DNA from: Oidiodendron maius Zn
Lineage: Eukaryota > Ascomycota > Leotiomycetes > Myxotrichaceae
Length of the DNA stretch: 64,000 nt
Reading direction: 5' to 3'
NCBI GenBank assembly: GCA_000827325.1
Contig: KN832873.1
Location: 313,037 to 377,036, forward strand
Shown piece by piece: positions 25,742 through 39,004 of the stretch (position 1 is the first letter of the stretch; every line of letters begins with the position of its first letter). The position numbers and the translations under genes were made by a program. Under the pieces are notes generated by a model. It searched no databases. It was given only the letters and a program-made list of their open reading frames with translations, and was not told where the DNA came from.

Positions 25742-25790
25742 ACGTAGTTGTATAGTAAGCGATCCAGGACAGTACGCGATCCAGGATCCA
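25742..25790. repeat. Terminal inverted repeat of pogo copy 1, left
   Basis: Pairs with 27561-27609. GCGATCCAGGA starts at 25759 and again at 25776, exactly 17 bp apart. Confidence 0.9.
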
Positions 25791-27560
25791 TAAAACTATA
25801 CCCAAATCTCCACTTTTGACTAATATTACTCCACAACCAACGCTCCAAATGTCTCAAACCGAGGGCCGAATCATACTTGCGCTTCAAGCCTATCAGCAGG
25901 GCCGATTTTCAAGTTTACGGGCTGCTGCATGCTTATATAATGTATCACATACAACCTTACTCCGGCGCAATCATGGGACTACCTCTCGATCCGATTTTAC
26001 CTCCCCTAACCGAAAACTCACTCAAACTAAGGAAGCTACACTTGTTAAATGGATATTATCTCTTGATATATGTGGTATACCTCCTACACAAGTCTTAATA
26101 CATCAAATGGCCGAATTACTCCTCAAAGAACGCGTCCAGAACGCGTCGATTAAACAGACTACACTGAGTAACCGCTGGGTCTACCGCTTTATAACTTAAC
26201 AACCTGAAATCAAATCCCGATACAGTCGAAAGTATGATTATAAGCGTACAAAATACAAGGATCCTAAAGTTATTCAGGCTTGGTTTCGGCTTGTATAAAA
26301 TACAGTAGCAAAATATAGGATTCTTGATAAGGATATTTATAATTTTGATAAGACAGGATTCTAAATGGGTATGATTTCTACAGCAAAGGTGGTTACTTCT
26401 GCTAAGAGGGATCGTATAGTGTTACTACAGCCTGGAAATCGTGAATAGGTTACAGCAATTAAGTCAATCAACTTGATAGGCTGGGTCTTACCTCCTATAA
26501 TTATCCTTAAAGGTATCATATACCAGAACAGCTAGTATAAGGCTATACCTTGGCGAATTGGAGTCAGTGATAATAGCTAGACGACTGATGAATTAGGCAT
26601 TACTTGGCTCAAGAAGGTCTTTAACCTATATACTTAGGGTTATATAATTGGAAAATATCGGCTTCTACTTATAGACGGATATGGAAGTCATATTATAGCT
26701 GAATTCAACTAATATACCAAACAAAACTTAATTATCGTGCTCTGTATGCCTCCCCACTCTTTATATATTCTATAGCCTCTAGATATAGGCTGTTTTGCAG
26801 TCTTAAAACGACTTTACGGACGGGCTATAGAAGCACAAATGCGGGTCGGAATCAACCATATTAACAAGGACGACTTTCTAGCCCTATATCAAGAGATCCG
26901 TCCAGCTGTATTTCAATCAGGTACAATTCAGAGTGGTTTTAGAGCTACTAGAATAGTTCCCTTTGACCCAGATCGAGTTTTGTCAGAATTATATGTCTAA
27001 ATGTAGACACTATCACCTCCTCGAGTACTGACTCAAACCCTATGTCCCTAGAACCCTGAAACACTATATAATATTATTGAATTATAGCTTCAGACTAAGG
27101 CTGTTTAACAATTGATTCGGTATCGTATGCAGAGTCCTCCTACTCCAGCTATTCAGGCAGTCAATCAGCTAATTAAGGGCTGCCAAATAGCTATATATAA
27201 TGCAACAATCCTTACAGCCGAGAACAGGCAATTACGGGCTGTAAATACAAGGGTACAGAAGAAGAGGGCTAAGAAAACAATGTTTGTCAGTAAAGGAGGG
27301 ACTTTAACTGCCCAAGAGGTCCAAGAGGGTCGGAATCAGGGTCAGAATCAGTCTGTAACTCATGATAAGGTTAGAATTCAGATGGTTGAGCCACCTAGCT
27401 GTATGGTATCTATATGTGCGCCACGGACATGTAGTCTATATAGATCACTAGAACATACTGCTTGAACGTGTCTAGAGCGTTAATGATTCAATTAGTTTAA
27501 TTAGCTAGTTAGTATTTAAAGTGGTTGATTTTTAATTAATTAATATATTTAGGAGTGGTA

Positions 27561-27609
27561 GGGATGCTGGATCGTATACTGTCCTGGATCGCTTACTATA
27601 CAACTACGT
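27561..27609. repeat. Terminal inverted repeat of pogo copy 1, right
   Basis: Inverted copy of the left repeat; the inner of the two 17-bp-spaced motifs carries substitutions. Confidence 0.9.
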
Positions 27610-27794
27610 TAGTTGAATTCACAACAGAACCAATCTTAGTAAGATTTGGGATCAAATCCGGCTTGAATTATATACCCACACCAGGATGCTGTTACTCAAG
27701 CACCTAGCACCATTTTAATCTCACAAATTCCAAAGTTACATCTACCACCTGAACATGACTAACAAGTGGCAGAAGTCACGTGCTTTCTAATATA

Positions 27795-27892
27795 GTCGTT
27801 CGGTTACGTAACCCACCCACTTTACACAGTAAAGTGGGTGAGGGAAGGCAATACGCCAAGAACAGCAATACGCCAATATTTTGCCCTGAAAC
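27795..27892. repeat. 98-bp terminal inverted repeat of pogo copy 2, left
   Basis: Matches 29656-29753 inverted with one mismatch. It contains the palindrome GGTTACGTAACC, the hairpin CCCACTTTAC/GTAAAGTGGG, and CAATACGCCAA at 27849 and 27866 (17 bp apart). Confidence 0.95.
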
Positions 27893-27939
27893 TAGCTAAA
27901 TAACCTAATACACCACCACCACCTTATATTATACCCTTA

Positions 27940-29628
27940 TTATATTATCTCAATGAAGCTCTCTTTCAGCTCTTTCAGTACCTTTAGATAATTTTTGCGC
28001 CAAATCTTCTCCTTCTTCTTAAGACGCATATTGACTACCTCCTTCTTATCCTCCTCCTCACCCTGAATCTGTATACATGCATGGTAAACCCTTATTTCAC
28101 CATACTTTTGGACTACTTTACCACTATCATCCTTCCTCTTCTTACGTGCAGCCTCTGCACTAGCCATATCCTGTAAACGATGCTTTGAAAAGGCCCCGGC
28201 TAACATTGATGTCTCTGAAGCCTTCTCAATCTTTGCAGCCACATGTATTACAGAGGGTGTAATCGGTGTTCCCTGTTCTAGGGAATCATTATGCCGCTGT
28301 CTAATATACTCAACCCCTAGCTTCCGAGTCCTTATAGTTAAAGGGGTCTGAAATTAAGTCCAGTCTGGTGGTGGTGGTGTTGTAAATCCAGGTGAAGAAG
28401 AGGGTAGTAGGGGTGAAGACCTCTGAATAAGTGGTGGTGTTTTAGGACGTTGAAGAGCCCGATACTCCTTTAATTTTAAGAGGACTAGCTGTGGATCCAG
28501 TGGAATTAAGCCTGTCTTCCGGAAAGCACTCCTATGAATCCGTGGATTTTTAAAGGTTTTATCATGGAAATGCTGAAAAAAGGCAAAGAAATCAGTGCGT
28601 GATATTTCCTTAGCACCTAAGAAGACCTGCTTCCGAACCTCCTTCTTAAAGTTATGTTTTAAGCTCTGAAATACACCAACATCTAGAGGCTGTAAGAGGT
28701 GCGTAGTGTGAGCAGGGAGCTGAAAAGGCCGAATATGGTGCTGCTAGCAGAAGTCTAGGAACTCTTGAGTAAGGTGACTCCTATAGCCATCAAATATTAA
28801 CATCCGGTATTTACCAACACTCTTTGATTGAGTATAGTAATTAAAGTGTTCAAGGTATTTAAGCCCTAGCGTATCGTTTGAGTAGCCAGAGCTTGATCGT
28901 GCGAACGTAATACCACCATCTAGGTCATTATTAAAATATCGACGCAGGTGATAAGCTCCAGCAAATATAATCATAGGAGGCACCTTTCGACCCCCATAAT
29001 TAATAGTCTCAACTGAGGTAATTAGCTCCTTATTTTCAGGGTCTGCTGTATATACAGCCTGTGTATCCTTTGGAACTAGGACCTTTTCACCAGAAGAGAC
29101 ACCGATTTGGAAGCCAGTCTCGTCAAAATTATATATATCCTTATCCTGGATCCCCCAGTAGTCCTTACACCTCTTAAAGGCCTTAAAATAGCCCTCAATA
29201 TCCTCTATTATATATGAGGCTAGACGCTTTGCAGATAGTGGCTTAGATTTCAGGGTATCGATATAACTAGATTGGCGCTTAATCCAGGCCTTAGTCCAGC
29301 GTACCGAGACTGACTTTTCAGGGTCACCAGTTGAGTAATAAAGCAGCCGATTAGCAGCTAAGAGGACTGCTTCAGTATTAGCTGGAGTCCCGCAGCTGTA
29401 AAGCATGAATATATAGTCTCGTAAAGCCGTATCTTGCACTGAATTCAGCTTCTTATTATATCCCCCTCGACTATTACTAGCCGGAACGCCAGCGCGGCGC
29501 CGACGTAATGCATAATATGATACTGAAAACTGACGGGCAGCTTCAGAGGCTTTCAGACGTGGATTAGCATCCATTGCAGCGCTAGCAGCAGCAATATTAG
29601 CCTCGATTTCAGTGGCGTTGGATGGCAT
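27940..29628 (-). pseudogene. pogo transposase with two nonsense codons
   Basis: One frame of 563 codons including the final stop. Order: N-terminal Psq/CENP-B-like helix-turn-helix (ASEAARQFSVSYYALRRR), CENP-B-type second DNA-binding part (VRWTKAWIKRQ), then DDE catalytic motifs YNFDETGF, LIFDGYRSH and, after the first stop, LLQPLDVGVF. The C-terminal part is basic and lysine-rich. It is interrupted by TAG at 28746-28744 (FC-stop-QHH) and TAA near 28354 (DWT-stop-FQ), both explained by CA to TA changes from Gln codons on the coding strand. Otherwise intact; the least damaged of the three pogo copies. Confidence 0.92.
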
Positions 29629-31967
29629 TGTGCGCGTTGAGTTATGGAAGGTGGGGTTTCAGGGTAAAATATTGGCGTATTGCTGTTCTTGGCGTATTGC
29701 CTTCCCTCACCCACTTTACTGTGTAAAGTGGGTGGGTTACGTAACCGAACGACTATTAGGTTAGGCCCGCTATCCCAGTCATCCATTGTTTTGCCATCTC
29801 GAAAGTGCCTTGCAATATGCGTCGCTCTTGAATCCCACGTTATAAACAGCATACCACAAAATCCACACTTCCAGATTTGATCGTTTCCTTTGGACTCCCA
29901 TGCTTCGATGACGCTTTCATCCAACATGGTACCGTGAAATTGACTCACATGTTGGACGAACTTGTCTCTGCGTTGGAACATTCGCTCTTCTTTCGGTCGA
30001 GCTAGGCACTCATGAATACGGTGGCAGCTGTGGATCCCAGTAACATGATCCGGGGCAGATCTACCGCAGAAAACACACGACCCAAAGGTGGGGTGGGACC
30101 ATATAACGGAGGAGTTGTTAGGCATACACATCCACTCACGGATGTTGTAGTGCTGGCTTTCTTCGTGGCGTTTCCAAGACTTCTCTCCGATTTCTATCTT
30201 GCAGAATGTGCATTGGAACAAGGATTTAGGGCTTTTCAAAGACCCGGCCCCGTGCGGGCTGGCCATTTTTCCGAAGTGATGGTCGACAGAATGAGCAGAT
30301 TCCAGGGATACCATGGAGCCTGCGCTGCTTGCACTCCTTGCGCAACTGTTCGCATACGGGCGATGCCTCACATGTTTCTTCCTGCCGCGTTTTGCAGGCC
30401 ATGCCCACCTTGCTTCCGGGCACTGGTCGAATGCGGGTCCAGCACTTGAGCCGGAAGCAGAGGCTGCCTTGCCTTTCCTCTGCTGGTTGAAACTCGAGAA
30501 ATCCGGGAAGGAACTTGGCATGGATTCGGCTGCTCTTCGAATGTCTTCGACGCTAGCAACCTCGTCGTCAGAAGAACTAGTTATATAGGTTTCCATCGGA
30601 GTGTGCTGGAGCTTCCTCGCGCGGGCATTGTTCAGCCATGTTTTGACTTGCTTGCGTGTTAGGCCAGTTTGATCTACAAGGTGATCGAATTCCGCCGGGG
30701 TTGGGTACGGATCATTCTTGTGGGCTGTGATCCAGTCATCAAGAATAGTGACTGCTGCAAGCGGTAATTTACTCGGTCTTTTACTCCAGGGAAGCGTACT
30801 TCCGTATTTCGCCTTCCTTTTCCGACTAGATTGCGTCTGAGGCTTCGCCATGAATATGTCGATTGCTTGGGCATTTGACACGTTTTCCAGATCTAGCTCA
30901 AATTTTGAATTACTAGCAGACCCTGAGGAGCCATCATTCTGTGCCGTATTTGAGGCGTTATTGAAATCCGCAGGAGCATCTAGCAGCTCCCAGCATTCTG
31001 GCCTTGGCCTGCAGTGTACAACCCGCACGTTGTCACCGGATTCTGGCGCCTTGCAAAGAGTGATCAGCTCAGCCGGATCGACGGTTGCTTCTGCCTGCCC
31101 GGCTTGGAGATTGATGCTGTTCCTGCTATAAAGGTCTAAATCAGGTTGGGTTGGATCCATCTCTTCACGATTAATTCCAACGTATGGAGACTTAGGTAGT
31201 GGCTGCCCTGGGAAGAGAATATCCCACATATGGTACCATTGCTCTGCGACTTCCTTCCCTTCACAAGGTTTCCTTAGCTCTTCCCTTTGACCATCGGTTG
31301 TGCCTTCAAATTCGTGGTCACCACGAATACTGCATGACCCTTCCCTTATATGAGTATCGCGAGATACCGCATCGGCCAAGATTTTATAGCAACGAGCGCA
31401 GTAAAACTCAGGTCCGGCATGCTCACGGAAGATATGCTGCCTGACATCCTCTATCCGTTTTAGGTCGTATCTCCAGCACGTACGATATTTCCCAGGCTTG
31501 AACTGATAGAAGGGGCAGGCTAATGATTGCTTCTTGACCCTTGGGCTGCCTTGGCTTATCGAAAGAGGCAATGGCTTGGTCCAATTCGTGGGGTAGTGGG
31601 GGGAAAAGGTTGAATTATTCCCGCTCCGGAGTGCCTGTGAATCACAAGGAGACAAAGTAATTGGATCCTGTGCAAAAGCAGTATCATCTAGCAAAAATTC
31701 TGTAGAGATAAGGGGCTCGGTAGAAGCGTTCTCGATACGACCATAATAAGTTACGCCTTCGAGTGAGACACTATTCCACAAAAAGTAGTCATCGAAGTAG
31801 TCGAAGTTGAAATCTTCTACATCAACGGTCATGGATCCGGATGTATTGACGACAGGGGGCATGCAATCAAATGCCTCTAGTGCGGCTAGTGGGGCAGACA
31901 TATCAAGAATGTCAAGAAGCGTAGGGGTCAGAAGAGGAGCCGGGCCTGAAGTTGAAAACAATGTCAA
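29553..31967 (-). CDS. Homeobox-KN plus C2H2 transcription factor, 3' end altered by transposon
   Basis: A single-exon frame of 804 codons. Residues 150-212 hold a fungal Cys/His region (ACPFYQFKPGKYRTC, HIFREHAGPEFYCARC), followed by MWDILFPGQPLPKSPY. Residues about 397-452 are a TALE/KN homeodomain: ILDDWITAHKNDPYPT, TGLTRKQVKTWLNNARARK. Three C2H2-like fingers follow at about 585-606 (CTFC), 631-679 (CVFC) and 700-721 (KCGFCGMLF...H...H). The native protein very probably ended about residue 742: joining the flanks of pogo copy 2 after removing one TA gives PNLILEST-stop. With the transposon present, the frame instead runs 65 codons into the terminal repeat. A nuclear DNA-binding regulator, target unknown. 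It is in tandem with the regulator at 23921-25609. Confidence 0.9.
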   Translation of the reverse strand: MTLFSTSGPAPLLTPTLLDILDMSAPLAALEAFDCMPPVVNTSGSMTVDVEDFNFDYFDDYFLWNSVSLEGVTYYGRIENASTEPLISTEFLLDDTAFAQDPITLSPCDSQALRSGNNSTFSPHYPTNWTKPLPLSISQGSPRVKKQSLACPFYQFKPGKYRTCWRYDLKRIEDVRQHIFREHAGPEFYCARCYKILADAVSRDTHIREGSCSIRGDHEFEGTTDGQREELRKPCEGKEVAEQWYHMWDILFPGQPLPKSPYVGINREEMDPTQPDLDLYSRNSINLQAGQAEATVDPAELITLCKAPESGDNVRVVHCRPRPECWELLDAPADFNNASNTAQNDGSSGSASNSKFELDLENVSNAQAIDIFMAKPQTQSSRKRKAKYGSTLPWSKRPSKLPLAAVTILDDWITAHKNDPYPTPAEFDHLVDQTGLTRKQVKTWLNNARARKLQHTPMETYITSSSDDEVASVEDIRRAAESMPSSFPDFSSFNQQRKGKAASASGSSAGPAFDQCPEARWAWPAKRGRKKHVRHRPYANSCARSASSAGSMVSLESAHSVDHHFGKMASPHGAGSLKSPKSLFQCTFCKIEIGEKSWKRHEESQHYNIREWMCMPNNSSVIWSHPTFGSCVFCGRSAPDHVTGIHSCHRIHECLARPKEERMFQRRDKFVQHVSQFHGTMLDESVIEAWESKGNDQIWKCGFCGMLFITWDSRATHIARHFRDGKTMDDWDSGPNLIVVRLRNPPTLHSKVGEGRQYAKNSNTPIFYPETPPSITQRAQCHPTPLKSRLILLLLALQWMLIHV
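29656..29753. repeat. 98-bp terminal inverted repeat of pogo copy 2, right
   Basis: Inverted copy of 27795-27892. It is read through by the homeobox-factor reading frame. Confidence 0.95.
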
Positions 31968-33228
31968 GGGGAGAGATGGCGGGGCAAGGTCGGGCAGTCA
32001 ATAAAAACATCCGGGATGAGAAACAAGACATCTATCGAAGACAGTGCCGTATGCCTGGGGAGGGGAGGGGAGACGAATGATATAGAATGGCCATAGTTAC
32101 GCGTGATGATGAGGGCGCGCGGGTTAACGATAATGAGGGTGGAGTTCTGGTGAAAAAGCACGGTGGCCTGCCGAAGGGGGATTGCGGCCTCAGGTTCTAA
32201 CATTAGCGGTCAATGGTGTCAGGTTTACGAGCAATGCAGCGCTAAACTTAATACGGCTACAACTACAACGTATCGGTAATATCCTCTACAGGTTATACTG
32301 GCAGAACAATGAACCGTAAAAGGGCACGTAAATAGGGCTGTAAAGGGTGTGTAAGTGCTTCAATTAATTAAGGATATAACCCTCTGGCTTAGGGGTTTAT
32401 ATGCTTCTAGGGTTGGGCTTCAATCCACCGGATTGGGTATCAATTATATAAGCAAACTCTGACAAATGGGCAGGATGTGCTGGGCCTGCATGTGCCGAAG
32501 GCGTTGGGGAGATTATAGACGTGTTTTAGCGTACATAATAGAGTATGTAGCGTATTCTTCTAAATCAGAACATACTTGTCTTTCAATAGGGCCTGTGGAG
32601 GACCATGAAGTACAGTGTGTTGGTAAAACGATCAAGGCGTGCTGCTATTAGACAATGGTTAATGTCCATCCCTGCGTGCCGGAAAAAAATAATAGGTACT
32701 GTAGGGGTTAAACCCGGCTTCAGTTTCTACTGTATAAGTTTTTACAAATCCGCGTAAATATTCTCGCTAAATGCCTTCGAAGAGAGAGAGAGAGTGCAGA
32801 TGGCTCGGACTTTAGTTTCTCCTCTTTTCTAGATTTTAGCGTCCTTTTTCCGTCACCTGCCCTCACGTGTATTCACAGTTTCTTGTAGGGCGTGCAGTGT
32901 ATCATATCCAGTATGCTTAAATCTTGGAACTTCCCTTCAGGTACTCGCAATTTGTCTGGAATCCGGTCACGTGTAGCCGAACCTCGAAATACTTGTCGTA
33001 TCGCGAGTGACAACACTACACGTCTAATGCCTTAGACAACCGTAATTCACTGAAACCTCAATAGGAGATGGCCATTCAGAGCTAGAGTCAGCGCCAAAAG
33101 CGGCGGATACTGTGGGAGAGGCCTTAAAGGCCAGAGGAAAACGTGGTCAGTTCGGACGGGTCTCTTGAGGCCTTCTTGCGTGATTAGGTATTGTGCCTTG
33201 CCTTTAGGGCTTTGCATAGCTGCTCTAA
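31968..33228. other. Spacer
   Basis: Upstream of the homeobox gene and downstream of the exchanger gene. A (GA)n run lies near 32780-32794. No gene is seen. Confidence 0.4.
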
Positions 33229-34354
33229 TCATCTTTTATATATAGTGAACTCCAGGGCGATGAAGACAGCATATAATACCAGTAAGATCCCACCAACCCA
33301 CCGTCCTGAACCCAGGAATACGGCCAAGAGAAGTAGCGCAGATGACGCCCAGGTAGTGAGCAGTTCAAACGGTATAACAGAGTCTGCAAGGTCTTTCCGA
33401 TTCCCTGCCACGAGCGTAATTCCAAGGCACAATGTGAGAAGGAATATATTGCTTCCCGCTGTACTTGCAATAACGATACCGCCATGCCCCCGAGCACCAC
33501 TGATACCAGCAACGAATTTTTCAGGTAATGTTGTAGCAAATGACAAGACCGTAACACCAAGGACCGTGTCCGAGAGGCCGACCGCATCAGCGATTGAAGC
33601 TGCACTATGTGAAAGGACGTAACCTGATAACGACAGGGCTAGGAAGCCCAGAACGAGTTGGGCAACGTGATATAAAAGAGTATGTTTCTGGGCACGGGTA
33701 GCGTGCCCTCCAGATGTATTGTTAGGGAGAAGAGGCGATATATCAGTTGGATGATGACCGTTCAGTGCCTCTGTGTCATGGCTCTCACTGCTCATATCAT
33801 CGTCACTGTCGTCTGAGTCTTCCGGCCTATCTAACACGCCTCTGTAAATCGCGTATGTAACTGAGACCAGGTATGAAGCAAATACTCCGATAAAGATGGA
33901 TCCCGCGAGCCAGCCCATGCTTTTCGTTAGGCCGACAACCATGAAACTTGTTGTTATGAGAAAGAGCAAGGCACTGTATATTTTCGCACTTCGATCGAAT
34001 GCCACGCAGCCCGGGTGGAAGAGGAGGCCGAGGGAAAACGCTCCCAGAATATTTGAGATAGAGGAGCCCATAACGTTGCCTAATGCGAGAGAAGAACGGC
34101 CTTGGAGGATGCATGCCACGACGACAGCAAGCTATGTTAATCAGCCAAACTCAGCACCTCCGTTACCACACGAGTAGTACCTCTTCCCATTCTGCACCTG
34201 CTGTAAGCAAGGCAACTAGTGTCTGTGAAACTCCCAGTCGACGAGCGATAATTGCGGTATGGTCGATGAAACGATCAGCTCCATACTCGAGGAGACATAG
34301 GCCGGCGATAAATGCACCAGCATCGTAGCAAACGCTGTCCCAATTCATGGCCAT
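33229..34354 (-). CDS. CaCA-family sodium/calcium (cation/proton) exchanger
   Basis: Two exons, 34354-34181 and 34131-33229 (intron GTACTA...TAG, 49 bp), 358 residues. The first alpha repeat spans the intron: LLTAGAEWEE/LAVVVACI and GNVMGSSISNILG. The second alpha repeat has TTLPEKFVAGISGARGHGG and STAGSNIFLL. Both carry the acidic and GS-N residues that coordinate Ca2+. A strongly acidic loop (EDSDDSDDD) lies between the two halves. About ten membrane spans. It should move Ca2+ against Na+ or H+ in a vacuolar or other internal membrane. ATG 34354 (MAMNWDS) is preferred because family members start there; the frame is open to an upstream ATG at 34480, adding 42 residues. Confidence 0.88.
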
Positions 34355-34827
34355 AGTGTTCTCCGTCGTTGTTCTAGCGGCAGTATGGAGGATGGGCAAC
34401 GAGACAGGACTAGCGGCTTGTCTAAAGGGGCTTAGCATCTTGGCAACGAGCTGCATGGAACTGCGCCACGCCGCGTTCAAGAGAGCGTTTACAGCCTCGT
34501 CAATTTCTCCTTCTCGTGATCAATCAGATCGATCATCTTCCTCAGTGAATGCAGAGCAAAGGGCCTTTTCCAGCGCGAAAGGTGCATCGTCCCTCCATGG
34601 TGAGCATTCCCAGTCTCAGCGTCCCTATGCGGGTTCTCCCTCCCCATTAGTATCGTCCTGCAAGGCGACTATCTAGTCGGAATTGCTTACGTTCGTGGAT
34701 TGTTATGCGATCAGAGGATAGAGAGTCCCGATAGCGCAATCGATACAATACTGCTGATTTAAAGAGAGCTTAGAGCCAAAATCTAATGAAAACCTGATTG
34801 TCAAAGAGTTGTTTCTGTTGATAAGAT
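34355..34827. other. Spacer between tandem minus-strand genes
   Basis: Includes the possible 42-codon N-terminal extension of the exchanger (34480-34355). Nothing else is seen. Confidence 0.4.
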
Positions 34828-35647
34828 CTACGATTCTTCCAACCACCTCTTAAGCATTTCCAATGCCTTGAAAGTATGTGAGATCTTATTCTTTTCTATC
34901 TTATCCATCTCGGCATACCTGTTGCAAGTCAGTTATTGTGCTTGTGATAGCAGGGTAATTTTCATAACAGACGTTTGCCCCTCGTACTCAAAAATCGGAT
35001 CCCAGCCTATGAAAAATGAGCATCTGATAAGTTATAACTAAAATCTCGCTTCTTACCAAAATTTGTCGGGCCTCTAGCTGGTACTATCTTGCCCTAGTTT
35101 TACTCAGTCAGGATGAAGAGAAGCGGCAGTGGCTGTGAGGAATTACATCTGTGCGACCTTGGAAGATGATTGGTTTATGGCCAGGGCCTTCACAATAAGC
35201 AAATGTGCACACTGCCTGGGCAGACTTGTCAGGGTACCCGGCGAGTAGATTGTTAAGCCCTTCGAGCCCAAGTTTTTCCAAGAACCACTTGCTATTGAAA
35301 ACGAATTGGTAAATTCAAGCAGTACTCAATGGTGTGTGTCCCACGTACATATACGGGCCTGGAAGCTCTTTCAACGCATTGAAACACAAGCTTGTATCTT
35401 CAACCAGTACGGGACCTTCAAGCTACAAAACATTAGCGACAGTTTTGAAGGGTAATTATCAGGTCAGGAGGCAGACAGCATCTGCAGCTCGTCGGCATTT
35501 GTCCGCCGAAATCTCCTCAATTGTTCCTTGGATCTCCACCAAATTCAACGACTGGCTCTGCAGGTCAACCGTACTACCCAGGATGGCCTTCACTACCGAG
35601 AGCTTGTTCTTGTTTCCTGTGATAAAATTGAGCTGTTTGGGCGCCAT
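34828..35647 (-). CDS. HAM1: Inosine triphosphate pyrophosphatase (HAM1 family)
   Basis: Six exons: 35647-35477, 35422-35349, 35291-35147, 35093-35057, 35006-34973 and 34918-34828; 552 nt, 183 residues, the normal length. Motifs: FITGNKNK (substrate/phosphate loop), VEDTSLCF (catalytic Asp), [24 protein letters not shown] and the C-terminal [10 protein letters not shown]. The enzyme hydrolyses ITP, dITP and XTP to monophosphates and pyrophosphate in the cytosol, keeping deaminated purines out of DNA and RNA. Introns 1 and 5 have unusual donors (GTCTGC at 35476, GTCTGT at 34972), but every exon joins in frame and restores the family sequence. Housekeeping gene, intact. Confidence 0.95.
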
Positions 35648-36607
35648 GGTATTAATCGCTAAAGTTTGACGTGTTGAGACTGGGTTGAAATTGTGCCGCC
35701 TTTTGTGTCCGATGCTGGTCCGATGCTGGACGCTAGCGGTGGGTTGCGTTGCAGACTTCGACGAATAGCCATTCTGAGGCAAATTTTATCTGCCACGGGT
35801 GTGGCTATAGGTTGAGACAATTTTGATAGCCGTCGTTGCACGTGACTATTCAGATGGCCCTCTGGGCGTAGTCGGACGATAAACGTATTATACCAATGTA
35901 GCCTCAAAGTAGATAGTAGTTTGTTATCCCTAAGCCTAATTCATCCGTCTGGGAATTTATCTACGCCCCTTTATCCACACAATGGCTTCCGGCGCAGGAA
36001 CTTCTTACGGCTCTCAGCGTCAGGGCGACGAAATCAGCGAAGTGCTTAGCCTTATCTAAGAAGAGCCTAGGTCTACAATATTGATGTTGATAGCGGTGGT
36101 GACAACTCAGAGTATCAAGCTTCTAGAAGAGGTGTCATCAACTTTTGCCAGGTACGGTAAGAGGATACCGTCGTTTGCAAACGAGGCTTCCCCATTGCCT
36201 CCAACTTTTTGACTACGGCGACCCGGGTATTCTGCTTTGTAGCCGAATACGGTTAAGCTCAATATACAATACAAAAACTACCATAATCGCGCCACTCAGC
36301 CAGGCCTTCTCAACCAGCCAGTTGCTTCTTTAACTGCATGTTGATCCTATCCGTATCTGTCGGCTCACACGTATCCCCACAGGTTTCCGAATAGCCTCCG
36401 TTCACCTACCTTACGATCAAAGGGATCAAGTAAAGTAATTGATGAAGGCTGTCCTCTTCATTACTATGGGTTACGTATGCATATATATATCCTGCGTTTG
36501 AAGGGCCAGCCCCCTAAATGCCCGTCGTTACAGAGTTTACGCTTTATTGCCTAAGGCACATAAAACTAGTGGTTGAAGTGACCCGAACAGTACCCATGTT
36601 CCAAACC
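35648..36607. other. Spacer
   Basis: A short ATG frame near 35983-36060 (MASGAGTSYGSQRQGDE) has no match. Nothing else is seen. Confidence 0.35.
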
Positions 36608-36830
36608 ATGGCTCCGAATCTCGCTCCCTCCTAGTATGATCTTACGCGTATTCGTGATGGGATAATTAACCAGGATTTCACTACTCGTGGCATGGCTAGC
36701 GCTGCTAGGTGTAGTGGGCGTTCGATCAAAGCAAATCTTCGTTACTTTGGGTCCACCAAGACTCCCTCAAATAGTAGGTCAAGGATTACTCGCATTTGTC
36801 TAAGCATATCAGGTCAAGTGCACAATCTGG
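36608..36830 (+). mobile_element. Tc1/mariner transposase N-terminal fragment
   Basis: From ATG 36608 the frame reads MAPNLAPS-stop-YDL, then IINQDFTTRGMASAARCS and SIKANLRYFGSTKTPSN. These match the N-terminal helix-turn-helix of fungal Tc1/mariner transposases (typically beginning MAPxLxPSQ). The TAG at codon 9 stands for a Gln codon (CAG to TAG, RIP-like). The rest of the transposase is absent, so it is a dead fragment; terminal repeats were not identified. Confidence 0.7.
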
Positions 36831-37143
36831 GTGAGTGTACAGTACGAACTACACCAATGCTAAAGCTCTTTTACTCTATGCCGAAAGGTTGCTCTCGCGA
36901 AACATTTCAGAAAATTTAATTCCTGTGGAAGATTAGGCTCCTTTGAGGGAGTAATAACTGCAAGCCTCAACATGGAAATGTCAATTGTGTCCTTAGCTGT
37001 GTAAGAGTAAAATATAGCGTCGTCCGCTGTAATTACTATTCCAGAAAATACTAGGAAACTGGTGGTAATCCTCGAGTACTATAAAGACACATGTTTTCTT
37101 CAATCCTTATGAGATGGAGATATAAATAAATTAGTAATATATA

Positions 37144-39004
37144 ACGTGCATGTATAGTGAGTCGACCAAACAAGCGAGTCGACCACTTTTCCTAATTTTA
37201 CCCTCTCTTACACTTTACAATACTTTTTCTCCACTATACAGCATGGAATCAAGTTCTCAAGAAAGCAGGGTTATCCTTGCCCTCCAAGCCCTTAAAAATG
37301 ACCCCTATCTCACTACTAGATATATAGCCAAAATCTATAATATCCTATATATAACACTTATTGATCGATACAGTGGCCGATAATCGCGATACAATATTCA
37401 GCCTAAATCTCGAAAGCTCACTAATTTAGAAGAATCAGTGATTGTTTAATATATTCTTGACCTTGATTCTAAAGGGTTTCCATCTAGGCTTTATGGTGTT
37501 GAAGATATAGCTAATCGTCTGCTTGCTGAGCGAAATACAGGACGTATCGGAATGCGCTGGCTATCAAACTTTATAAAACGACAACTATAGCTTGTTATAT
37601 GTTTTAATCAAAGATACGACTATCAGAGAGCTAAATACAAAGATCCGATACTAATTCAAGGCTGGTTTTCACTCCTAAAGAATACAATTATAAAATATAG
37701 GATTATAGACACGGATATCTACAATTTTGATAAGACTGGGTTTATAATAGGCGTTATCTCTATAGCAATAGTGGTTACAAGCTTAGAGAGGTCTGGCAGA
37801 GCAAAGTCAAAGCAGCCTGGTAATCGTGAATAGGTTACAGTAATCCAGGCTATAGATGCGCTTAGCTGGTCGCTACCACCATTTATGGTTGTAAAGGGCG
37901 TATATATCCTACTCTCCTGGTATAATAAGTTTAAATTACTAAAGGGTTAGAGGCTCTCTGTTAGTGATAATAGGTGGACTACAAATGAGATTGGCCTAGA
38001 TTGGATCAAGCATTTTGAATTATATATATAGCCTCGAAAAGTAGGTGGATATCGACTCCTAATACTTGATGGCCATAAATCCCACCACTTGACTGAATTT
38101 GAGCTTTTCTGCTAGGACCATAATATTATTACACTCTGCATGCCTGCTTATTCCTCTTATATACTCCAGCCACTCGATGTAGGCTGTTTTAGTCTATTGA
38201 AAAAGGCATATAGCAAGCAAATCAAGGGGTTAATGCATGGTGGTCAGACCTATATCATAAAGGAGGATTTCTTTCCAGTATTCTAGGTGGTATTCCAAGA
38301 GTCAATGACTATACAAAACATCCAGGGAGGCTTTAGAGGGACTGGAATTACACCTTTTGACCCTTAGCGAGTACTGGATACCCTCCCTCCTTATGCAAAA
38401 ACACCAACTCCTTCAAACTTATACCCTAGTACAGCTCAAACCTGGAATCCTATAACCCTAAAGAATGCAACCGATGCTTCACGACAGTCTGCCTTTATTA
38501 AAACCCAAATCAATTACTATTAGGGTAGCTCTCTAATACAGACTATTAATGCTATAGACCAATTTACTAAGGGTTCAGTGGCAATTATACATAAGGTAGC
38601 TCTATTGCAATCGCGGATTACTGAGCTAGAAGAGGCAAATAAGAGGCTTAGCAAGCGCTATAAAGCTAAAAAAACTAGGCTACAAAAAGGAGGATCACTC
38701 TCTGTACAGGAGGTAGAGGATCTAGTGGCTCAAACTAATATAGATAGTCGATAAAGTGATGAAATAGGCAGTGGTGGTGGTCAGGTCCAAGGGGTGCAAT
38801 CGCATATTCGGCACTGTGGTACCTGTGGCGAGACTGGGCATAATACATATACCTGTCAAAAAATAGTAGAGACCTCTAAGGAAGAGGACTTATATAGTAG
38901 CAATTAATTTTAAGGTGTTGTGGTTAAATAATAATTAGTTTTGTAATAGGTCTTAGGAAAAGTGGTCGACTCGCTTGTTTGGTCGACTCACTATACATGC
39001 ACGT
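37144..39004 (+). mobile_element. pogo/Fot1-like DNA transposon, copy 3
   Basis: 1861 bp flanked by TA at 37142-37143 and 39005-39006. The terminal inverted repeats of 52 bp (37144-37195 and 38953-39004) are identical. GAGTCGACCA starts at 37159 and 37176, 17 bp apart. The transposase remnant is on the plus strand. Confidence 0.95.
37243..38907 (+). pseudogene. pogo transposase with multiple nonsense codons and CCHC knuckle
   Basis: A single frame from ATG 37243 to TAA 38907 without frameshift. Order: helix-turn-helix (SRVILALQALKNDPYLTTRY), IYNFDKTGF near 37714, LLILDGHKSH near 38060, LQPLDVGCF near 38165, then a C-terminal zinc knuckle CGTCGETGHNTYTC near 38812. Several in-frame TAG/TAA codons replace Trp or Gln (for example RE-stop-VT for REWVT, FC-stop-DH). 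The damage is RIP-like, although the terminal repeats are still identical. Confidence 0.9.

Follow-up and report, generated by a model that had tools for sequence, protein, structure and literature searches.

The window analysed here, a stretch of 64,000 nucleotides from Oidiodendron maius Zn (contig KN832873.1, positions 313,037 to 377,036, forward strand), contains three pogo-type DNA transposons, with TA on either side of every one. Plain position numbers are window coordinates, and the surrounding genome comprises 46 Mb in 58 contigs, in which further elements are cited by L numbers or by position. Inside the terminal inverted repeats (TIRs) of these elements lies a pair of direct repeats (DR1 and DR2) with a period of 17 bp; the ACGT-type ends share one frame, the two copies change in concert, and their motif covaries with a recognition helix in the helix-turn-helix (HTH) domains of the transposase. 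The elements and their repeats are as follows.

25742-27609, TA on both sides, plus strand: element 1, a Fot-type (ACGT-ended) pogo element with TIRs of ~50 bp and a broken transposase
25751-25767 (DR1) and 25768-25784 (DR2), plus strand: left repeats of element 1, 17-bp period, core AGTAMGCGATCCAGGA
27584-27600 (DR1, intact) and 27567-27583 (DR2, degenerate), minus strand: right repeats of element 1
27795-29753, TA on both sides, transposase on the minus strand: element 2, a pogo element with TIRs of ~101 bp
27848..27876, plus strand: window-left repeat pair of element 2, GCAATACGCCAA at 27848 and 27865
29672..29700, minus strand: window-right repeat pair of element 2, mirrored, period 17
37144-39004, TA on both sides, plus strand: element 3, a Fot-type (ACGT-ended) pogo element with a broken transposase
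37153-37169 (DR1) and 37170-37186 (DR2), plus strand: left repeats of element 3, core GAGTCGACCA
38979-38995 (DR1) and 38962-38978 (DR2), minus strand: right repeats of element 3

A sequence-only reading of the window had placed paired motifs 17 bp apart in each element, and the positions proved exact: the left end of element 1 carries GCGATCCAGGA at 25759 and 25776, element 2 carries CAATACGCCAA at 27849 and 27866, and element 3 carries GAGTCGACCA at 37159 and 37176. In a 12-bp self-match, lag 17 was the best at five of the six ends and tied with lag 35 at the right end of element 1; by a second self-match score (lags 4-45), it was again best at five of six and came second at that same end. 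The motif had also been described as mirrored in the opposite repeat, which is fully so in element 2 (TTGGCGTATTG at 29672 and 29689) and element 3 (TGGTCGACTC at 38963 and 38980) and partly so in element 1, where a single mirrored copy is exact (27582) and the other right-hand copy is degenerate. TIR lengths agree with those of Fot/pogo elements (40-60 bp; ~100 bp in FotC), and the target site reads as TA in all three elements, with no TAA duplication seen in elements 1 and 3.

Genome-wide, 130 matches to the DDE_1 domain were found, some of which represent only half of an element, and 60 places were analysed, of which 46 had definable ends. The other 14 consist of L009, L015, L027, L028, L033, L035, and 8 of 20 end pairs, for which the short stretch examined may have missed the element end. 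Each end was then scanned over its outermost 90 bp for the lag (4-45) with the best self-match. Lag 17 ranked top at 77 of 84 ends in 42 elements, the misses being the left ends of L022, L024, and L038, both ends of C8:1911772, and the right ends of element 1 and L042. It ranked top at one of eight ends in four further elements (L017 and three with short TIRs, L010/L040, L020/L050, and L032), so that it is the best self-match at 78 of the 92 ends of 46 pogo-type elements. When ends were clustered at 85% similarity over 50 bp, 21 clusters resulted, a number that overstates their independence since some clusters are mutually related; lag 17 was top at 39 of 42 representative ends, and every representative (21/21) had it on top at at least one end. 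As controls, lag 17 was top-ranked in 96 of 4,200 dinucleotide shuffles, 9 of 644 segments from the rest of the window, and just 4 of 269 segments internal to these elements, a rate of 1.4-2.3%. The shuffles and both sets of segments rule out a chance origin of the period, and the internal segments rule out an artefact of base composition or of repeat-induced point mutation (RIP). A survey across fungi had been proposed in the sequence-only reading as a test that could refute the 17-bp periodicity; this count, taken in a single genome, does not refute it.

Exact pairs of each of five motifs were also sought across the genome, gaps of 0-30 being allowed, and all 50 pairs found, many of which are ends already in the 92-end count, had a period of 17 (3 for the element 2 motif, 8 for its sister motif CAATATGATAA, 23 for GCGATCCA, 4 for GAGTCGACCA, and 12 for AAGCYGGACA); reversed-pattern controls of the same search gave zero pairs. 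How far the repeats lie from the end is variable, the core starting at offset 14 in ACGT-type ends versus 55, 59, or 60 in the element 2 family, and in L062, L063, and L064 this distance is unequal between an element's own two ends; the step is still 17. Motif pairs in opposite orientation, ~200-400 bp apart (for instance, C4:239239/239614 and C38:936/1314), were seen at C4:239239-239638, C18:482329-482728, C18:497737-498136, C38:936-1340, and C5:1611038-1611277. These are probably miniature inverted-repeat transposable elements that use ends from the families of elements 1 and 2.

The frame of the repeats was analyzed on left ends only, those of element 3 and of 14 cluster representatives (L021 excluded, and C8:1477514 excluded for its CAACGT start). 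These 15 ACGT-type ends align without gaps in one frame, DR1 occupying offsets 11-27 and DR2 offsets 28-44 (0-based, from TA), and the match from copy to copy spans ~13 bp (offsets 14-26). Over the 17 positions, DR1 and DR2 agree at a level of 0.80 within an element versus 0.47 for a DR2 borrowed from a different element, and the observed agreement was reached in 0 of 20,000 permutations; the two copies thus change in concert. The two ends agree as well, the DR1 core being equal at 12 or 13 of 13 positions between left and right in 20 of 20 elements. In the 15 left ends, A occupies DR1 position 18 in 93% and position 26 in 87%; outer halves are frequently AAGC-, AGCGAG-, or AAGCG-like, and inner halves vary. 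Given the frame that most of them share and the frequent likeness of their outer halves, the motifs are not unrelated strings, and the original statement that they differ completely was too strong.

We then turned to the transposases, whose DNA-binding regions lie in the window as follows.

25849..26196, plus strand: DNA-binding domain of the element 1 transposase, HTH_psq followed by HTH_Tnp_Tc5
29239..29628, minus strand: N-terminal double-HTH region of the element 2 transposase

A DDE_1 catalytic domain was assigned to element 2 by hmmscan and to elements 1 and 3 by the matches at C4:339506 and C4:350864; a DD35D spacing was found by visual count in the L060 protein, L060 being related to element 2. 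The DNA-binding domain of element 1 matches both HTH_psq and HTH_Tnp_Tc5, as does that of its intact relative L002. The match of element 2 to HTH_Tnp_Tc5 is weak (21.4 bits, below the Pfam cut-off of 22.2), HTH_psq is not listed by hmmscan for its N terminus, and the N-terminal HTHs of element 3 were recognised by alignment only. A profile of 13 double-HTH regions had CENP-B as its best PDB match (1HLV_A, E 0.0034; next match, E 0.18), with profile positions 12-113 aligned to chain positions 17-130 and both HTHs covered; phmmer with one single DNA-binding domain sequence gave no match in PDB. The CENP-B-like double-HTH N termini announced in the sequence-only reading are thereby borne out at the level of sequence profiles. 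Two places, L015 and L028, hold open transposase frames of 597 and 585 amino acids (stop to stop) with no inverted repeats detected, and they are possibly domesticated genes or solo copies.

The helix that goes with each motif was compared across elements, with the recognition helix and the residue ranges picked after viewing the alignments. In the element 1 family, VSHTTLLRRN or VSHTTLLRRD goes with GCGATCCA, including in L004, whose DNA is only 87% identical; ISYTSLYRRN goes with GCGGATCA, ALYST.. with GCTGGACA, TPPSTLHDRY and TPPLTLYDRY with GCCGGACA, and TPHTTLAERY with GCCGGTCA. The mean difference in the HTH_psq helix region was 0.172 for same-motif pairs (8) versus 0.592 for different-motif pairs (37), and the same comparison in the catalytic domain gave 0.143 versus 0.213. 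The association of helix and motif stood at 1 of 5,000 label shuffles; because the elements are related, this value and those of the Mantel tests below are optimistic. In the element 2 family, both copies at both ends of element 2 read CAATACGCCAA, and those of L062, L063, and L064 likewise read CAATATGATAA; L060 and L061 have the element 2 form of the motif, with one- or two-base changes in some copies. The HTH1 helix of this family is VSYYALRRRRAG or APYQSLLRRRAG, and between the two groups, fixed differences affect 5 of the 13 residues in the recognition segment of HTH1 (Fisher p 0.003) and 4 of the 62 residues in HTH2 (p 0.82). This covariation supports the view that recognition helix and motif change together and that the repeats behave as recognition sites of their own transposase, the spacing being kept as the sequence changes. 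It agrees with the earlier proposal of a conserved spacing and a coevolving sequence. Among the papers listed in a literature search, judged by title and start of abstract and with subscription papers mostly outside it, none concerned helix-motif covariation in Fot/pogo elements.

The half of the motif that goes with each HTH was examined by partial Mantel tests on 20 elements (L003 and L017 of the element 1 family, L011, the element 2 family, and 12 end pairs excluded). The HTH1 recognition segment, given HTH2, tracked the inner half (r 0.30, p 0.0005) and gave r 0.00 (p 0.42) for the outer half; HTH2 (residues 58-97), given HTH1, tracked the outer half (r 0.62, p 0.0005) and gave r 0.14 (p 0.055) for the inner half. 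An assignment of HTH1 to the inner half and of HTH2 to the outer half would fit these values, and we take it as a lead, not as a demonstration.

Several results, besides the relatedness already mentioned, weigh against this picture. The densest 20-residue window of the element 2 family was not significant against shuffles (p 0.10), and residues 119-125, outside HTH1, form another hot spot in that family (5 of 7 changed). L034 has the element 1-like motif GCGATCCA with a different helix, so the map from helix to motif is not one-to-one. As for the half-sites, the recognition part of HTH2 (105-122), given HTH1, tracks both halves (0.33 and 0.26). The outer half is followed as strongly by the linker that joins the HTHs as by HTH2 itself (r 0.69 and 0.65, uncorrected), which means that common descent may explain part of the assignment. 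At the level of the repeats, DR1 and DR2 match poorly in L024, L038, and C8:1911772, the core mismatches of L024 and L038 being transitions. L017 (= L047; left end near 1827) has one unit on the left and two on the right, its ends differing by exactly 17 bp. Lastly, lag 17 was top at none of the six ends of L040, L050, and L032, three elements with short CAG-type ends; at two of these ends, it merely ties at a noise-level score of 5. One end of each of the three carries CCGGA-containing repeats at 11 and 15 bp, no lag being prominent at the other end, and in L042 and L055, which have a CAG-type look, lag 17 is found deeper inside at 3 of 4 ends.

Other structures were present near the ends. 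In element 2, a palindrome stands between the end and the repeats:

27814..27840, plus strand: palindrome of element 2, 12-bp arms CACCCACTTTAC/GTAAAGTGGGTG, 3-base loop

It is mirrored at the opposite end (29708-29734). The ends of L060 to L064 also have a palindrome between end and repeats, in most cases with arms of 10-14 bp and a 3-base loop; in L062 to L064, the arm sequences are unlike at the two ends (CACTTTAC or CACTTAGC), each being self-complementary, and a mismatch in the right palindrome of L060 leaves 6-bp arms. The Fot-like L011 (C1:777546) has ends that begin with TAAGTTCCCCCCCC and not TAACGT; the 17-bp pair is present, and the C count is unequal by one between its ends. The three window elements are decayed: the frame of element 1 read over 26188-27000 has 9 stop codons, the element 2 transposase has two in-frame stops, and element 3 has 4 TAG within the DDE_1 match C4:350864-351298. 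Their TA/AT ratios are 1.17-1.19 versus 0.85 in the rest of the window, values that fit RIP-like decay.

In our proposal, each end would carry two head-to-tail units, which would allow two transposase subunits to be neighbours on it. Within a unit, the second HTH, adjoining the catalytic domain, would read the outer, more conserved half (AAGCG-like) and the first HTH the inner, variable half. The 17-bp step would be kept because it sets the relative placement of the two subunits, and the motif would drift or switch with the HTH1 recognition helix, both copies and both ends following. A division of labour can be borrowed from IstA, the transposase of the bacterial IS21, with a catalytic subunit on the outer unit and a structural one on the inner. 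Paired 17-bp units read by two side-by-side subunits, with the half-sites split between the HTHs, are in our judgment the probable explanation of these ends; we infer direct binding, two subunits per end, the half-site assignment, and the role of the spacing from the patterns described above.

The 17-bp step could also be merely inherited from an ancestral tandem duplication homogenised by gene conversion, with no binding role for both copies. The gap-free frame does mark the ACGT-type ends as clearly of common ancestry, and copies are close within families; however, the cores have diverged between families yet remain alike within an element, the element 2 type has the same step at another end-to-repeat distance, and helix and motif covary. 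Moreover, unselected repeats should slip out of register by indels, whereas a loss among the 46 elements was found only in L017, and there of one whole unit. Simple inheritance thus strikes us as unlikely. The existence of two HTHs and two copies per end would equally suit a single subunit lying across the pair of units, HTH1 and HTH2 each contacting a different copy, and an earlier suggestion that the HTH and CENPB domains recognise the repeat, as cited in PMC2836289, can be read so. Such an arrangement is difficult to reconcile with HTHs that match different Pfam families and copies that are near-identical over ~13 bp, and the covariation points to two halves inside each copy. CENP-B has both its HTHs on one site. 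The passages on IstA likewise place both HTHs on one repeat (PMC10122671), and we give the single-subunit arrangement little credence. Finally, the repeats might be host-factor or promoter sites, or hairpins, and not transposase sites at all. Single-strand folding is strong at the element 2 end (z -3.4) and at the left end of element 3 (z -3.0), but the element 1 end folds not clearly better than shuffles (z -1.1), and the element 2 palindrome is outside the repeats. A host factor would have no need for a family-specific motif that tracks the transposase helix, and the repeats occur at both ends and not just at the promoter end, which makes explanations of this kind hardly believable.

Extending the paired-subunit proposal, we can imagine a modular code of two half-sites, in which HTH2 would read a slowly changing outer half and HTH1 a fast-changing inner half, with the two units locked at 17 bp. 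New families would arise by a switch of the HTH1 recognition helix, the four units of the two ends converting in concert, and the CENP-B box of vertebrates, which is 17 bp long, would be a single unit kept after the domestication of a pogo transposase. We put this forward tentatively, as a possibility we would not yet bet on. The genome supplies many natural pairs of close transposons that differ in motif and helix. With such pairs, a change of transposase specificity without loss of the element's own ends becomes directly testable, and they offer a concrete means of examining if the CENP-B box represents one such leftover unit.

Among known systems, Drosophila pogo has 12-bp sites, and Pot2 (1994) reportedly has 16-bp direct repeats. 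In CENP-B (PDB 1HLV), it is the double-HTH domain that aligns with the present profile over both HTHs. The 17-bp repeats within TIRs and the idea that they are binding sites are already known (PMC2836289, 2010; PMC3441728, 2012); the reading of each motif as the site of its own transposase is supported by covariation here. The passages on Trem (Paracoccidioides), Aft1, and Tan1 describe TIRs of 42-49 bp with two 17-bp direct repeats suggested as the HTH/CENPB site (PMC2836289); like the present elements, these are of Tc1/mariner type with HTH_psq and CENPB domains and paired 17-bp repeats. Relative to that account, as far as its passages go, the comparison of the spacing with other lags, the concerted change, and the helix-motif covariation are added here, and the new detail is that the motif appears to change with the transposase recognition helix at a fixed spacing. 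In Verticillium dahliae, the passages of PMC3441728 call the direct repeats transposase binding sites and give DAHLIAE1 repeats of 15-17 bp; unlike the paired units here, DAHLIAE2 has a 17-bp unit three times at one end, and, also unlike the elements here, DAHLIAE3 (CCCG ends) is described there as having no recognisable direct repeat. A contrary report, in the passages of PMC4188875, concerns Sclerotinia families with TIRs lacking direct repeats. A TAA target site is given for 341 of 385 Fot elements in PMC7386202, whose passages assign a TIR of ~100 bp and a TA target site to the FotC clade of the pogo superfamily, as in element 2, which is FotC-like by these two features alone. The closest mechanistic analogue is IstA of IS21, a bacterial transposase with direct repeats 23 bp apart and not a member of the Fot/pogo family (PMC10122671). 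The passages of that paper describe two HTHs per subunit and two direct repeats per end, each repeat being read by both HTHs, with HTH-2 on CS1 and HTH-1 on CS2; catalytic subunits sit on R1 and structural ones on R2, and two complete repeats are required. We read CS1 and R1 as the outer ones, a point on which those passages are silent. The two direct repeats per end found here are as in IS21, and the covariation suggests, in our elements, a similar reading of each repeat by two HTHs.

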